Positions 56,629-63,065 of a stretch of 64,000 nt of DNA are shown piece after piece. The position numbers and the translations under genes were made by a program. Source of the DNA: Thermoproteota archaeon. GTDB lineage: Archaea; Korarchaeota; Korarchaeia; Korarchaeales; Korarchaeaceae. Location: assembly GCA_027491735.1 (NCBI GenBank), contig JAOZGP010000023.1, forward strand, positions 42,656 through 106,655, in the 5' to 3' direction. The stretch's first letter is position 1. Each line of letters opens with the position of its first letter. Under the pieces are notes generated by a model. It had not been told where the DNA came from, did not search any database, and was given only the letters and a program-made list of their open reading frames with translations.

Positions 56629-59379
56629 GTGGTGCTCGAGCTCCTGCATCCATCCCTGGTTAAGCTGTGGAGAAAGAGGGGTTTCCATGAGCCAACTCCT
56701 CCCCAGAAGAGGGCGATCCCCCTGATCCTCTCCGGGAAGAATGTCCTCATAATGGCTCCAACCGGAAGCGGGAAGACCGAAGCAGCCGTCCTTCCGATCC
56801 TATCGATGATGATTCGTGAGGAAGGGAGAGGAGTGAAGTTCCTCTACATAACACCGTTGAGGACGCTCAACAGGGATCTCCTGTCCAGGATGGAATGGTG
56901 GGCCCTGAGATTGGATCTGAGGATTGGCATCAGGCATGGAGATACCAGTCAAGCGGAGAGGAGAGCTCAGGCACTTCACCCGCCTGACATACTGATAACA
57001 ACACCCGAATCCCTTCAACTCCTCTTGACGGGGAGAAGGCTTAAGGAAGGCCTGAGAAACCTCAGATGGGTGGTGGTGGATGAGGTTCACGAGCTGGCAG
57101 GAAGCAGGAGAGGAGCCCAGCTCAGCGTGCTCCTGGAGAAGCTCAGGTTCATCCTGGGAAAGAAAATCCAAATTATAGGATTATCAGCAACTATCGGAAA
57201 TCCTGAGGAGGTGGGGAGGCTTCTCGCTGGGTCCAGCGAGGTCAGCGTGGTCAACACGCCCGTCCTCAAGGAGATGAGGATTGAGGTCCTATGGCCTGAC
57301 CCAAGGCCGGATCTCTCCGATCTCTTGATGGTCTCTCCAGATCTCTCTGGAAGGATCTTGGCTCTCAAGGAGATCATCGAGAAACATGGAACATCCTTGA
57401 TATTCGCAAACACCAGACCAATGGTTGAACTTCTCGGGAGCAGGCTCCTCCTCTTGGATGAGAGATTTCCTGTTTACGCCCATCATGGAAGCCTCTCACA
57501 ATCCAGGAGAGTGAGGATTGAGGAGATGCTCAGAAGAGGAGAGATAAAAGGAGTCATATGCACCTCCTCCATGGAGCTTGGGATAGATGTGGGGCACGTC
57601 GAGTTCGTCGTCCAGTTCAACTCCCCGAGGGAGGTCAGAAGACTAATACAGAGAATTGGAAGATCGGGGCACTCCCTGGGAAGGGTGAGCAGGGGCGTGG
57701 TCCTCGTTGGAAGCAGCGATGATGCGCTTGAGAGCTTGGTCCTCATAAGGAGACTTAAGAAAGGGATCATAGAACCTTCCGAGATATTCGAGGCTCCCTT
57801 GGATGTCCTGGCCCATGAGGTAGTCGGCTTCTCCGTGTGCGGGGTGATGGATCAGGACTCCATATACGAGGCCGTGAGAGGTGCTTATCCCTACAGGAAT
57901 CTGAGGAGGGAGGACTTTCTGAGACTGATCTCATTCTTGGAGGAGGTCGGAGTCATCAGGAGGCATGAGGACAGAATCTACCCGACAAGAAGGGGGTTCA
58001 AATACTTCTTCGGTGTGCTCTCGACGATACCGGAGACAAGACAGTACGCACTGATTGAGAGGTCCTCAGGGGACTTCGTCGGGGTTCTCGATGATTACTT
58101 CGTCTCGGAGTACTGTGATGTAGGAGCCAGGTTCATAGTGGGAGGGGTTCCGTGGGAAGTCGTGTCGCTGGGGGAGGAGAGGGTGTACGTTGAGAGGACG
58201 GATGACTACTGGAGCTCCATACCAAGCTGGATTGGCGAGGAGATACCAGTCCCGTTCGAAGTAGCCCAGGAGGTTGGGAGAATGAGGAGGAGAGTTGAGG
58301 AGCTGCTTGAGAAGGAAGGAAAGCTTGAGAAGATCCTTGAGGAGTCCTTCGGATCGGAAGATGTCCTAAGGAAGGCTCTAGAAGATGTTAGGAAGATGTT
58401 TCTGATGGGAATCCCCGTCCCGACCGACAGAAGGATACTCGTCGAGGACTGTGGGGATGTTGTCGTGGTGCACGCTCACTTCGGCAGCAAGGTGAACAGG
58501 GCCCTCGGCAAGTACATAGCTCATGAGGCATCCGGATCAGGATACCCCGTCTACCTATCCGAGAAGCCCTACAGGATAGTCATCAGGGGGGCGAATGCTC
58601 AGCAGGTTCATGATATAATCAAGGGAGTGAATAGAACGAGCTTCCTCAGGGATCTGAGGAGGTCTGTTGAGGAGAGCAAGGCATTGAGGTGGAGACTTCA
58701 GCAGGTGGCGAGGAGGATGGGAATCCTGGACCCAGAGGTCTCGCTGACCAGAAGGATGGTCGATGCCATGATGATAGGACTTAAGGGAACTCCAGCCATG
58801 GAGGAGGCGGTCAGGGAAGTCCTTGAGAGGGATCTCGATGTGAAGAAGGCTCTCGATGTTGTTGACATGATCGAGAGGGGTGAAGTGGAGGTCGTCATGG
58901 TCAAGGGACCAACTCCGATAACCCTGAACAACCTGAGGTCAATTGGTCCTCTTAAGCCAGTTCAAAGGAGAAGAGAGGTCCTCTCCTATCTGAGCTTCAA
59001 GCTGAGAGTTCTTCAGACCTTTATCTCATTCGGATGTCTGGACTGTGGCTATGTGTTCAGCATCCCGGTGAGGGAGGTTGAGCCACCTGAATGCCCGGCA
59101 TGTGGATCCAAAGAGCTCGTGTTCGATCTCCTGGATGAGGAGGAGCTCTCAAGAGTTGTTGAAAGGATCAGAGAAGGAATGAGGGGGAGAGGATCCAGCT
59201 TGATGGCGTGCTCTAGGCTTCTCAAGAGATTTGGGGTGAAGGCAGTGATCGCTAGGGCTGCAGGCCTCAACTTGAGGGAGATGGAAGATCTGTTGAAGGA
59301 GGGATTGGGTGGAGAGGATCTCATGAGAAGGATCTACCTGCTTCACAGGGAGAAGACGAGGAGGAGGTTTCACAGCTGA
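56629..59379 (+). CDS. lhr: Lhr-family ATP-dependent helicase with C-terminal zinc-binding motif
   Basis: MAPTGSGKTEAAVLP, VVVDEVHEL, ICTSSMELGIDVGHVEFVVQFNSPREVRRLIQRIGRSGH; CLDCGY...CPACGS. Confidence 0.95.
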   Translation: MVLELLHPSLVKLWRKRGFHEPTPPQKRAIPLILSGKNVLIMAPTGSGKTEAAVLPILSMMIREEGRGVKFLYITPLRTLNRDLLSRMEWWALRLDLRIGIRHGDTSQAERRAQALHPPDILITTPESLQLLLTGRRLKEGLRNLRWVVVDEVHELAGSRRGAQLSVLLEKLRFILGKKIQIIGLSATIGNPEEVGRLLAGSSEVSVVNTPVLKEMRIEVLWPDPRPDLSDLLMVSPDLSGRILALKEIIEKHGTSLIFANTRPMVELLGSRLLLLDERFPVYAHHGSLSQSRRVRIEEMLRRGEIKGVICTSSMELGIDVGHVEFVVQFNSPREVRRLIQRIGRSGHSLGRVSRGVVLVGSSDDALESLVLIRRLKKGIIEPSEIFEAPLDVLAHEVVGFSVCGVMDQDSIYEAVRGAYPYRNLRREDFLRLISFLEEVGVIRRHEDRIYPTRRGFKYFFGVLSTIPETRQYALIERSSGDFVGVLDDYFVSEYCDVGARFIVGGVPWEVVSLGEERVYVERTDDYWSSIPSWIGEEIPVPFEVAQEVGRMRRRVEELLEKEGKLEKILEESFGSEDVLRKALEDVRKMFLMGIPVPTDRRILVEDCGDVVVVHAHFGSKVNRALGKYIAHEASGSGYPVYLSEKPYRIVIRGANAQQVHDIIKGVNRTSFLRDLRRSVEESKALRWRLQQVARRMGILDPEVSLTRRMVDAMMIGLKGTPAMEEAVREVLERDLDVKKALDVVDMIERGEVEVVMVKGPTPITLNNLRSIGPLKPVQRRREVLSYLSFKLRVLQTFISFGCLDCGYVFSIPVREVEPPECPACGSKELVFDLLDEEELSRVVERIREGMRGRGSSLMACSRLLKRFGVKAVIARAAGLNLREMEDLLKEGLGGEDLMRRIYLLHREKTRRRFHS

Positions 59380-59934
59380 TCATCCACCTTCAACAGGAGC
59401 CTCGAGGCCTGAGAGCCTCTTCAGGTCTATCTCAATTCTCGATCTCCACCCTATTAGGATCTGATTTCCTTCCTCCTCAAGGTATCCCATCTTTATAAGC
59501 CTGTTCAGGACATAATCCACCCTGGGTTGTCTGAACCTCGACCTGAGAAGGGAGAGTAGCTCTCTATGTCCCGCCCTTCCTCCCCTTGAGATCAGATAGA
59601 GAAGGGCGACTGAGAGCATCGCCAGGTCATCTATTCTCCATCCGGCAGTACTGGCCTCCTGAACGGAGACAGGTCCCCTCATGAGGATCAGAAAGGTGCA
59701 CTTCCTCAGCTCATCCTCCCTCTCCGGGTCTATTGGAACCTCATCTCCATCACCACCAACAGCAACCACCCTGAGACCTAGATCTGTCAGTCTCTCATCT
59801 AAAGCCTTCACAACCTCCAGATAATCGTTTCCAACGACCTTCCTCAGCTCCCATCCCTTCACCCCTGGCTTGAGGCCGGATCTGAAGAGAAGAGTTCTAG
59901 CAGCTCTTCTAACCTTTTCAGATGGGACGGGCAT
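59380..59934 (-). CDS. Winged-helix KITE/MAGE (Nse3/ScpB)-like protein
   Basis: VRRAARTLLFRSGLKPGVKGWELRKVVGNDYLEVVKALDERLTDLGLRVV...LSVALLYLISRGGRAGHRELLSLLRSRFRQPRVDYVLNRLIKMGYLEEEGNQILIGW; overlaps kleisin-like gene. Confidence 0.55.
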   Translation of the reverse strand: MPVPSEKVRRAARTLLFRSGLKPGVKGWELRKVVGNDYLEVVKALDERLTDLGLRVVAVGGDGDEVPIDPEREDELRKCTFLILMRGPVSVQEASTAGWRIDDLAMLSVALLYLISRGGRAGHRELLSLLRSRFRQPRVDYVLNRLIKMGYLEEEGNQILIGWRSRIEIDLKRLSGLEAPVEGG

Positions 59935-60619
59935 TCGAGAACCTCCTGACCGGAATCACGTAGGAGAAGAACTTCCCTGGGGATGGTTTGGTTACGTAGA
60001 GCTCCTCCTCAACGGGATCCAGAACGAGGCTTATCTCACCGGAGCTCGCCAGGAAGGCGATGGCGTAGGCCTTAAGGAGGACCTCCTTTGGGGATCCCGA
60101 CACGACCTTCCTGTAAGGGATGGGTTCCTCCATTTTCCTAACAATTTCCCTAACCTCATCCAGGATCTCCTCAAGATCTGGTTCTTCAGGTATTATCTCT
60201 TTAAGCGATCCTCTGAGTGTTATCATCTCCCTTGAGGGAGGTGCAATCCTCTTCTCCTGCAGGTAGGACAGCGATCTGTGGACATCAGCCAGAGTCACCT
60301 GCTCCAGATCCACTATAGGGCTCCATGCCTCGAGAAGTTCCTCCGCCAAGGATCTGGGGTCCATGCTCAACTTGAGGAGAGCGATTATCCTCCCCAAGGC
60401 CGCAACGGTGGACTCCCTCCTGAGCCACTCCCCCTGCTCCCTCACCACTTCTGCAAGCTTGAGGATTATCTCCGAGTCCATCAGGAGATCCTCATCCCTC
60501 ATTCTTGGAAGGAGGTCCCTCAGCTCATCCAGGATCTCCAGCACCCTCACTGAGAAGGGATCCGAGCTTGATCTCAACGTCGCTGACACCTCATCCAGGA
60601 TCTCCTCAAGCCTCCTCAA
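59918..60619 (-). CDS. Kleisin-like (ScpA/Nse4-like) protein
   Basis: N-term DPFSVRVLEILDELRDLLPRMRDEDLLMDSEIILKLAEVVREQGEWLRRE and C-terminal winged-helix-like PKEVLLKAYAIAFLASSGEISLVLDPVEEELYV; lies between SMC and KITE genes. Confidence 0.55.
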   Translation of the reverse strand: MRRLEEILDEVSATLRSSSDPFSVRVLEILDELRDLLPRMRDEDLLMDSEIILKLAEVVREQGEWLRRESTVAALGRIIALLKLSMDPRSLAEELLEAWSPIVDLEQVTLADVHRSLSYLQEKRIAPPSREMITLRGSLKEIIPEEPDLEEILDEVREIVRKMEEPIPYRKVVSGSPKEVLLKAYAIAFLASSGEISLVLDPVEEELYVTKPSPGKFFSYVIPVRRFSNARPI

Positions 60620-62324
60620 GCAGGAACCTCCCTGACTCTCCCCTCACCTTCTGAACAACGAGAACGTGGACGTCATCAGGGATGTCGCTCGGTGGGACCG
60701 GTGTTATCACGAGGTACTGGATCCCGCTTCTGGCGAGCTCTAATATGGACCTGAAGATGACCCCCCTGTTCCTGAGATCCATATGAGTATCGAACTCATC
60801 AACAGCTCTGAAGGGAGATTCCATGCAGCTCTGGAGTGCCAGGAAGAAGGACATGACGGCTGATGTTCTCTCTCCACCACTATGAGAGAGAGGATCTAGA
60901 GGGGAGAGATCCGAGCCAGAGAAGCTTATGAGGAGCTCTATCCCGGCCTTCTCGGGATCCTTGAGGTTGATAATCCTCACCTCGCCATCGCCGCCCATCC
61001 TGGACAGGATCTCCCTGTACATAGGATTCACAGTCTCTAGGAGAGAGGTGAGCTTCTCCCTCCAGATGATCATCCTATCCTCGATCTCCTTCACAAGTCT
61101 TCTCTTGTTTCTTTGAACCTCCTCGGCCCTCTTTCTAAGCCTCTCGTAGATCTCCCTGTACTTGGAGCAGGCTTCATCGGTGTTTCTTGGAATCCTCCCG
61201 ATTCCTGCCAGAGATATCTCGACTCTCCTCATCTCCTCCTCTATCTCATCTGGATTCCTCCCCCTGAACAGTCTCCCCCCAAGCTTCTCGGCCTCAGAGG
61301 CTAACTCCTTTATTCTCCTTCTAGCCCTCCTGACCTCCTCCTTCAACCTCCCAAGCTCATCTCTCTTGATCTCGATGAGGACCTTGGAGACCTTCACCTC
61401 ACCGATCTTGTCGGCTGCCGACTCCCACAGGTTCCTGAGCCTCAGAAGACCTTCCTTCAGCCCAATCCTCCTGTCGAGCATCCCGGCCTCAACCTCTCCT
61501 ATGCTCTCCTCAAGATCCTTTACATCGGAGGAGAGGTTGTTCATCCTCTCCTCAAGGTTCTTAAGCTCGCTCTCGAGCCCTTCAGTTTCCTTGACGATCT
61601 TGGAGAGTTTCTTCTCCTTCTCGAAAACCCTGGTCCATGCCAGTTCCCTTCTAAGGTTAGATAACTTCTCCTCAAGCTTCCTCTTCTTTTTAAGCTTGTT
61701 AGACATCTCAGTCCAGTAGTTTAATGTCTCCTCCGCCTTTGAGAGGAGAGTCTCCACCTCTCTCTCCTCAGCCTCGACCCTCAGAAGTGTTTCCCTTGCT
61801 CTCAAAATCCTCTTCCTATATGAGGAGAGGCCAACGGCCCCCTCAACAACCTTCAGCTTATCCTGAGGTGAGAGAACGGAGAACTCCTCCATCATGTTCT
61901 GATGCATTATTATCAATGGATTGTCCGGATCGAGACATAACTTTGAGAGCATCCTCCTTACAGAGGACTTCGTCATCGTCCTCCCGTTGACCTCATGCCA
62001 GTACTGCCCGTCTGACCTTATGTATCTGCTTATAAACACCTCGTCGCCCCTCACCGAGGGTATGGGTCTGGATCCCCTGCCCCTCGGTCTGTTGTCCAGG
62101 ACCACCGTCGCCCTGGCGTACCTCTCTCCCTTCCTTATCAGATCGCTGAGCCTTCTCCCCCTCTCTGTGTACGTTTGGCCGAGAGCGACAGATATTCCCA
62201 GAAGTATCGATGATTTTCCAGACCCGTTTGGTCCAGTTATCAGGTTCACTCCGCCCTCCAGCGGTATTCTGGCATACCTGTACGACATGAAGTTCTCGAG
62301 GATTACCTCCTTCACAAGGGGCAC
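60606..62324 (-). CDS. Short SMC-family ATPase with Smc5/6-type head motifs
   Basis: VILENFMSYRYARIPLEGGVNLITGPNGSGKSSILLGISVALGQ...RGRRLSDLIRKG; DNPLIIMHQNMMEEFSVLSPQDKLK; coiled coil; LSHSGGERTSAVMSFFLALQSCMESPFRAVDEFDTHMDLRNRG...QYLVITPVP. No zinc hook CxxC. Confidence 0.88.
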   Translation of the reverse strand: MPLVKEVILENFMSYRYARIPLEGGVNLITGPNGSGKSSILLGISVALGQTYTERGRRLSDLIRKGERYARATVVLDNRPRGRGSRPIPSVRGDEVFISRYIRSDGQYWHEVNGRTMTKSSVRRMLSKLCLDPDNPLIIMHQNMMEEFSVLSPQDKLKVVEGAVGLSSYRKRILRARETLLRVEAEEREVETLLSKAEETLNYWTEMSNKLKKKRKLEEKLSNLRRELAWTRVFEKEKKLSKIVKETEGLESELKNLEERMNNLSSDVKDLEESIGEVEAGMLDRRIGLKEGLLRLRNLWESAADKIGEVKVSKVLIEIKRDELGRLKEEVRRARRRIKELASEAEKLGGRLFRGRNPDEIEEEMRRVEISLAGIGRIPRNTDEACSKYREIYERLRKRAEEVQRNKRRLVKEIEDRMIIWREKLTSLLETVNPMYREILSRMGGDGEVRIINLKDPEKAGIELLISFSGSDLSPLDPLSHSGGERTSAVMSFFLALQSCMESPFRAVDEFDTHMDLRNRGVIFRSILELARSGIQYLVITPVPPSDIPDDVHVLVVQKVRGESGRFLLEEA

Positions 62325-62382: not shown

Positions 62383-63065
62383 ATGCCCTTCTCGGCCAAG
62401 CTCTTCGAGCCGGATCTACCGGTTCTCGAGGTAGTCAGGAGGTTGAGGGGGCTTAGGACAGAGAAAATTGTTGATGTGGACGGAAAGGATGTTGAAGTCG
62501 GACTCAGGGTGAAGGAGCTTGAGAAGAAGGATGGGGTTCTGAGAGGGTCATAGAGGAGAGCTTCCTCATATCCGTTAATTGTAGGGGAGAGGAGGGTTCC
62601 TACATCGGTTCCGGTTGAGTTCGAGTTATTTTCAACAGGAAGGCAGGAACTTCCTGGTGATAGAGGCCAAGAAGATGAGGACCTGTAAGGTAGCTTCTTG
62701 GATCTCAGCAGCGATATCGGCGAGCAAGGATGCCGTCTATGAGGCTAGAATAGATCCCGAAGTCCTGAGGAGCTTCTTTAAGAAAAGGATTGAGACCGTT
62801 AGAGTGGCGTTCTTCGATGAGGTCAGGCTCCCAAACGTCAACAAGCTCTCCCTTTACGGAAGGGAGCTCGTGAACACCGACATCTACAGGGGATATCTCA
62901 AGGTTGGCAGAGTGCGGTATGTCGTCTTTGAGCCGGAGGAGGGGGCTTGTCATTGGGCTGACAAGGGACTGCGTGATCACTTTCTTCTCAAAAATGGATG
63001 AGGAGAAGTGCTTTAAGTTCATCAGGGAGAAGGTGATCCCATTGACGATGAGGTCCCAGGAATGA
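62383..63065 (+). pseudogene. Multiply frameshifted gene of unknown family, divergent from the SMC-like operon
   Basis: MPFSAKLFEPDLPVLEVVRRLRGLRTEKIVDVDGKDVEVGLRVKELEKKDGVLRG / RVIEESFLISVNCRGEEGSYIGSG / FNRK-GRNFLVIEAKKMRTCKVASWISAAISASKDAVYEARIDPEVL...YVVFEPEEG / LVIGLTRDCVITFFSKMDEEKCFKFIREKVIPL*: coherent protein spread over several frames. Confidence 0.6.

Follow-up and report, generated by a model that had tools for sequence, protein, structure and literature searches.

Organization of the locus

The window, which is the whole 64,000-nucleotide stretch of DNA analyzed here, was taken from contig C40 of a 41-contig, 1.36-Mb archaeal genome. Three minus-strand genes within it encode a small SMC ATPase (mini-SMC), a putative Nse4-like kleisin, and a KITE protein (Table 1). 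The SMC and kleisin genes overlap by 14 nt (60606-60619), and the kleisin and KITE genes by 17 nt (59918-59934). A sequence-only reading had placed the three open reading frames at 59380-62324, exactly where we find them, and every motif that it cited could be located (GPNGSGKSS, LSHSGGERT, DEFDTHMD, DNPLIIMHQNMMEEF, and QYLVITPVPPSDIP).

Table 1. Genes and features of the SMC-kleisin-KITE locus, with positions in the window
Feature	Position	Strand	Description
Lhr-type DEAD/H helicase	56629-59379	+	916 aa; convergent to the trio; paralogue clade of trio genomes
KITE (gene 3)	59380-59934	-	184 aa; ATG start; tandem winged helices, Nse1/Nse3(MAGE)-like, no RING
Nse4-like kleisin (gene 2)	59918-60619	-	233 aa; TTG start; N-terminal helical part, C-terminal winged helix
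Mini-SMC ATPase, Smc5/6 clade (favored placement)	60606-62324	-	572 aa; GTG start
Mini-SMC domain order			head N-half, arms of ca. 100 aa, no hinge domain, head C-half
Mini-SMC head C-half motifs			H/QSGGERT, DEFDxHMD, Q..ITP
c3 gene	62383-63064 (approx.)	+	ca. 230-aa family; divergent, head-to-head with the SMC gene

The mini-SMC has short arms and no hinge

The segment between the two head halves comprises ca. 200 residues of coiled-coil-like helix and a variable tip of 0-80 residues, which bears out the expectation of drastically shortened coiled coils, with arms of ca. 100 residues. Canonical SMCs carry hinges, as do Smc5 and Smc6. The window's genome encodes a canonical SMC of 777 aa in which the Pfam SMC_hinge domain was found (E = 1e-20); none of the five mini-SMCs scanned has it. 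Hinge loss, as read from these domain scans, is a point additional to the earlier claims, as are the Lhr-type and c3 neighbors, the patchy, apparently mobile distribution, and the Asgard counterpart described below. The apex is helical and variable and has no CxxC hook; on this ground, and with scores of 64 bits or less against cut-offs of 700-1087, identification of the protein as Rad50 was rejected. Assignment to the ASRP, coalescin, or Sph proteins was likewise rejected (68.9 bits for NCBIfam ASRP against a cut-off of 300).

The mini-SMC head groups with Smc5/6

When compared with PDB sequences, the SMC family profile gave similar scores for Smc5 (232 bits), archaeal (Pyrococcus-type) Smc (227 bits), and Smc6 (224 bits), and lower ones for Smc2 (195 bits), Smc3 (165 bits), Smc1/4 (147 bits), and Rad50 (78 bits). 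Head-domain trees were then built from two data sets that took in PDB-derived yeast and human Smc5 and Smc6, Smc2, Smc3, canonical archaeal SMCs, and Rad50. These recovered a group consisting of the mini-SMCs, Smc5/6, and a second SMC of Asgard archaea (SH-aLRT/UFBoot 96/99 in the first data set and 93/99 in the second), which stands apart from canonical SMC and Smc2/3; the grouping of mini-SMCs with Smc5/6 received values of 89/97 and 87/96. Overall, placement of the head with Smc5/6 had UFBoot values of 96-100, in agreement with the Smc5/6-type head that had been proposed, and AU tests were mixed. The first data set rejected a tree joining mini-SMCs to canonical SMCs (p = 0.002), which the second did not (p = 0.14); the second rejected one that placed everything except Smc5/6 together (p = 0.026). 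Because the AU tests disagree between data sets, the sequence evidence favors, but does not prove, placement of the mini-SMC with Smc5/6.

Independent support for this affinity comes from the distribution of the Q..TP motif, which is present in 31/31 mini-SMCs, five of six Asgard second SMCs, and both Smc5 sequences (2/2), and in 0/18 canonical SMCs (5 of the 18 were not parsed). The mini-SMC also unites the Smc5-like QSGGER and the Smc6-like DEFD.HMD in a single protein. Genome G000 encodes one SMC of the Smc5/6 clade rather than two different ones (Smc5 and Smc6), so the idea of a single-SMC version stands.

The partner proteins resemble Nse4 and Nse1/Nse3

As a single sequence, the window kleisin matched no Pfam or NCBIfam family, and its affinity emerged only from a family-wide scan. 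Member by member, Nse4_C was detected in 18/27 kleisins (best 1e-4), the next family in 3, and Pfam ScpA in none. The kleisin profile retrieved yeast Nse4 first from the PDB (E = 0.006); human EID3/Nse4b came next, along with archaeal ScpA. The best fold matches of the predicted model (pLDDT 67, modest confidence) were Nse4 and the winged helix at the C terminus of ScpA. On these sequence matches gene 2, which had been described as kleisin-like, is classed as an Nse4-type (delta) kleisin.

The window KITE likewise had no Pfam or NCBIfam match on its own, and MAGE and Nse1 emerged from the family-wide scan only (MAGE in 8/28 members, SMC_Nse1 in 4/28, and a weak ScpB match in 1/28). The top three PDB matches of the KITE profile were MAGE/Nse3 and two Nse1 proteins. 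A predicted model with tandem winged helices (pLDDT 83.5) gave, as its top four Foldseek hits, chains from MAGE-G1/Nse1 and Nse1-Nse3-Nse4 structures, followed by MukE. No RING was matched in this 184-aa protein, and it has no zinc-binding tail. Gene 3 is thus a KITE of the Nse1/Nse3(MAGE) type, as the proposed likeness to Nse3/MAGE had implied. Taken singly, the matches of the trio subunits are weak (E 1e-4 to 0.05); they are persuasive because they agree.

As a control, the partners of canonical SMCs in these genomes, including that of the window's genome (L011), were scanned. They matched SMC_ScpA/Rad21_Rec8 and SMC_ScpB with E-values down to 1e-37; none of them matched Nse4_C or MAGE. Thus, the window's organism has two distinct SMC-kleisin-KITE gene sets, and membership of the trio in canonical Smc-ScpAB was rejected: its kleisins have no ScpA match and the only ScpB match of its KITEs is the weak one noted above. 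This bears on an alternative in which the trio is a reduced paralogue of canonical (condensin-like) Smc-ScpAB that serves as a chromosome organizer and came by its Smc5/6-like motifs through convergence. Such an origin would fit the homology of all SMC heads, the closeness of archaeal Smc to Smc5 in profile score, and the second-data-set AU test (p = 0.14). We nevertheless regard it as very unlikely, given that the kleisin and KITE match Nse4 and Nse1/MAGE rather than ScpA and ScpB, that a complete canonical Smc-ScpA-ScpB operon is already present in the same genome, that branch support (93-96/99) opposes it, and that the mini-SMC carries the Q..TP and QSGGER...DEF motifs.

The trio is conserved, patchy, and apparently mobile

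Trio loci were gathered by an SMC search of relatives and with a KITE profile run over 394 archaeal genomes (31 of which were positive), and were then annotated. The order SMC, kleisin, KITE is intact at 31 loci in 30 genomes; the genes overlap at most of these, and at a few, two of the genes lie 0.5-1.7 kb apart. Identity to the window proteins ranges from 25 to 61% for the KITE and from 26 to 52% for the SMC. Since homologues of all three genes keep the same order at 31 loci, the arrangement is not due to chance, and the gene-order comparison in related archaea upholds the conserved operon that had been proposed. When named genomes were searched by means of the SMC alignment, at least two true relatives were among the matches listed. 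The mini family is well delimited: its complete members score 670-900 bits in the SMC scan, against no more than 183 bits for any SMC outside the family.

Carriers come from the family, class, and phylum of the window's organism and from three families of another lineage (f19, f34, and f110). The trio is absent from most genomes of genus g4, themselves 96-99% complete. The mini-SMC of the window shares 52% identity with its counterpart in another genus and 45% with that in its own, whereas rpoB of the same genome shows 67% and 80% identity, and canonical SMC 43% and 51% identity, to the other and own genus, respectively. This reversal suggests horizontal movement of the module. A Thermofilales-labeled copy (L061) encodes a mini-SMC 49% identical to that of the window, with rpoB at 44%; it lies on a 7-kb contig that could be mis-binned. 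Judged by these sequence comparisons, the trio is a patchy module that has apparently moved horizontally.

Conserved neighbors include an Lhr-type helicase

The convergent Lhr-type helicase gene that abuts the operon in the window is next to or near the trio at 16 other loci, 17 in all. Trio-linked helicases form a paralogue clade of their own (UFBoot 82), which takes in copies located elsewhere in trio genomes, and a complete single-chromosome genome of the window's family without the trio (G009) has other Lhr paralogues only. The gene is outside the operon, and in some families it is distant from the trio or on another contig. Neighborhood and co-distribution together suggest that the Lhr-type helicase is a likely functional partner of the trio.

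The c3 gene is divergent from, and upstream of, the SMC gene at 22 loci. In the window it is split over three frames by two frameshifts and a stop, which reflects either an assembly error or a pseudogene. No relative of the c3 family was found in Pfam or the PDB. Because c3 also occurs in genus g4 genomes that have no trio, we rejected it as an obligate subunit. Nse2 and Nse5/6 were not found within the operon. Nor was a JetD or LmuA effector detected in the operon or among its conserved neighbors, and membership in the Wadjet or Lamassu systems was rejected on this ground.

A related function is nonetheless the main rival to the explanation developed below, namely that the Smc5/6-type clamp restricts mobile elements such as plasmids and viruses in a Wadjet-like manner, and that the Lhr-type helicase serves it as a partner or as the effector. 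Action against mobile DNA has this standing because of the patchiness and mobility of the module and because of the roles of Wadjet and of human Smc5/6, which restricts extrachromosomal DNA (PMC10586767). The gaps among nearly complete g4 genomes and the reversed identities both fit such a system, the Lhr-type helicases match BREX BrxH and other defense helicase profiles, and the mini-SMC matches the mad3 and LmuB profiles. However, these defense-library matches reflect general superfamilies, and the operon holds no nuclease or other effector (neither JetD nor a LmuA-like protein). The modules of f19 and f34, moreover, keep c3 as a constant neighbor across many genera, unlike a typical defense island. 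On balance we judge a restriction role to be rather unlikely, though worth keeping in mind.

Full-length counterparts in Asgard archaea suggest that the mini form is derived

A second SMC of about 1,122-1,161 aa is encoded in families f42, f57, and f65 (loci L152, L154, L156, and L231-L233), followed in most cases by a kleisin-like gene and then a KITE gene. Gelsolin, an Asgard marker, was found in the genomes tested (five of f42, one of f57, and one of f65), and these families are treated as Asgard on that basis. The one second SMC examined for a hinge has one. Trio profiles detect the Asgard partners (KITE, 5e-8 to 1e-4; kleisin, 3e-13 to 1e-4), and profile-profile comparison links the two sets as well (kleisin, E = 5e-11; KITE, E = 2e-7).

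The sequence-only reading had described a single-SMC, miniature Smc5/6 possibly close to an ancestral form. The Smc5/6 affinity, the trio, and the short arms stand; the claim that the short form is near the ancestral one is not supported, as the Asgard operon of the same clade is full-length and hinge-bearing. If the mini architecture were ancestral, the hinge and long arms would have been gained later, and maximum-likelihood (ML) trees could be read in this way, in that the mini group comes out paraphyletic in them, with Smc5 and Smc6 nested within it. However, monophyly was not rejected for the mini group or for Smc5/6 (p = 0.17-0.54), and a run under the C20 mixture model, which yields a topology without support values, joins Smc5 and Smc6 as sister to most minis. 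With hinges present in Asgard members, canonical SMCs, and Smc5/6, a single loss is simpler than a later gain, and we give almost no credence to an ancestral mini form. Since Asgard counterparts and both Smc5 and Smc6 have hinges, the hinge-less, short-armed architecture is most likely the derived state. The composition of one SMC, one kleisin, and one KITE, by comparison, may be ancestral to Smc5/6.

A proposed short-reach DNA clamp

What we observe directly is three conserved subunits with their family affinities, the loss of the hinge, and the linkage and co-distribution of the genes. To explain these observations we propose, with somewhat better than even confidence, that the trio forms a minimal Smc5/6-type SMC-kleisin-KITE complex that works over a short reach as an ATP-dependent clamp on DNA, or as a sensor of its structure, with an Lhr partner. 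The mechanism would follow that of Smc5/6 and Smc-ScpAB, on which it is modeled. Two copies of the single SMC would form a homodimer, one Nse4-like kleisin would link the two heads, neck to cap, and the KITE, probably as a dimer that replaces Nse1-Nse3, would sit on the middle of the kleisin. ATP-driven engagement of the heads would then hold DNA clamped among the heads, the kleisin, and the KITE. Because its arms measure ca. 100 residues and it lacks a hinge, the complex cannot close into the long ring that a hinge completes in other SMC complexes, and the absence of such a ring argues for a short-reach clamp or DNA-structure sensor rather than a long-step loop extruder. Junctions, supercoils, and forks are candidates for the structures sensed, and the adjoining, co-inherited Lhr-type helicase, as the likely partner, would process the clamped replication or recombination intermediate. 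A role in repair is suggested by analogy within the family and by the gene neighborhood.

Comparison with known systems

Smc5/6 is the least understood of the eukaryotic SMC complexes, also as regards how its kleisin and KITE subunits arose. We put forward, as a tentative proposal with less than even confidence, that no known prokaryotic system is more closely related to Smc5/6 than the trio, which would be a hinge-less clamp of one SMC, one kleisin, and one KITE that is horizontally mobile and works with a dedicated Lhr-type helicase. Under this proposal, Smc5 and Smc6, and likewise Nse1 and Nse3, would each be a pair that arose when one gene in an archaeal set of this kind was duplicated, and an SMC would here function without need for a hinge or long arms. 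A one-motor archaeal version offers a simple setting for studying the origin of Smc5/6, and a mini version without hinge or long arms is a direct way of asking which functions an SMC complex retains when these are missing. The three proteins are small and should be tractable for purification and structure determination.

Archaeal SMCs described as SMC5/6-related have been reported, with citation of Yoshinaga and Inagaki 2021 (PMC9389158, PMC10003631), and appear to fall in the same phylogenetic group as the trio SMC. That group very probably includes the mini-SMCs or the Asgard ones; these two papers treat it as SMC sequences only and mention no kleisin, KITE, operon, or hinge loss. A search of full-text articles outside subscription journals and preprint servers found no description of an archaeal Nse4/KITE operon or of hinge loss. 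Archaeal Smc complexes were held by Jeon et al. to be generally without a KITE subunit (PMC7055376), whereas archaea, including Asgards, bear whole Smc5/6-type trios with a KITE of their own.

The archaeal and bacterial Smc-ScpA(-ScpB) complexes share the SMC-kleisin-KITE plan of the trio, but they belong to another SMC clade and to the ScpA and ScpB Pfam families, have a hinge in most cases, and, in the window's genome, are encoded apart from the trio in an operon of their own. Wadjet and MukBEF also combine an SMC or SMC-like protein with a kleisin and a KITE, and Lamassu has a short-armed SMC-like protein; the trio differs from these in having neither JetD nor LmuA and in its heads, which are closer to Smc5/6, and MukE is only a secondary fold match of its KITE. 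The Asgard operons have the same gene order, a homologous KITE and kleisin, and an SMC of the same clade, but are full-length and hinge-bearing, and are adjoined by an AAA ATPase and a MoxR/VWA pair rather than by Lhr and c3. Eukaryotic Smc5/6, with its core of Smc5, Smc6, Nse4, Nse1, and Nse3, differs in number and in form, the trio having one SMC with arms of ca. 100 aa and no hinge, one KITE, no RING, and no Nse2/5/6 in its operon. The likeness to this core lies in the head phylogeny, the Q..TP motif, the Nse4_C-type C terminus of the kleisin, and the Nse1/MAGE-type tandem winged-helix domains (WHD) of the KITE.

SMC architecture and the hinge

The canonical SMC of the window's genome (777 aa) has short arms and keeps its hinge. 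Because a canonical-clade SMC of family f19, like the trio's mini-SMC, is without a Pfam hinge, the SMC hinge may have been lost more than once. The Asgard family f57 encodes, besides its other SMCs, an unusually long SMC of ~1,487 aa; one of these was placed in the tree and fell in the canonical clade.

Coordinates of SMC-related features
Feature	Location	Strand	Remark
Canonical SMC region, window's genome	L011 3024-6349		with ScpA and ScpB
Canonical-clade SMC, family f19	L164 2654-4837		727 aa
Long SMC, family f57	L212, L213, L215, L223		genomes G120, G157, G243, G294
Trio and Lhr	L061 294-6788		MAG labelled Thermofilales
Kleisin-KITE locus, genome G025	L058 8602-10292		
c3 homologue (conserved uncharacterised family)	window 62383-63064	+	head-to-head with SMC gene

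Unusual loci and second operons

Thermofilales is an order expected to be without SMC, and the trio with Lhr in L061 reflects either horizontal transfer or mis-binning. In G025, ~1.7 kb separates the kleisin and KITE genes, the operon and the Lhr-like gene share one strand, and additional divergent SMC and trio copies are present. The window's c3 reading frame is interrupted by two frameshifts and one stop, reflecting either an assembly error or a pseudogene.

Asgard genomes (L152, L154, L156, L158, L231-L233) encode an additional, full-length SMC of the Smc5/6 clade, which shares one operon with a kleisin and a KITE gene. A conserved AAA ATPase gene precedes this operon; in family f42, a MoxR-type AAA and VWA-domain gene pair is divergent from it.
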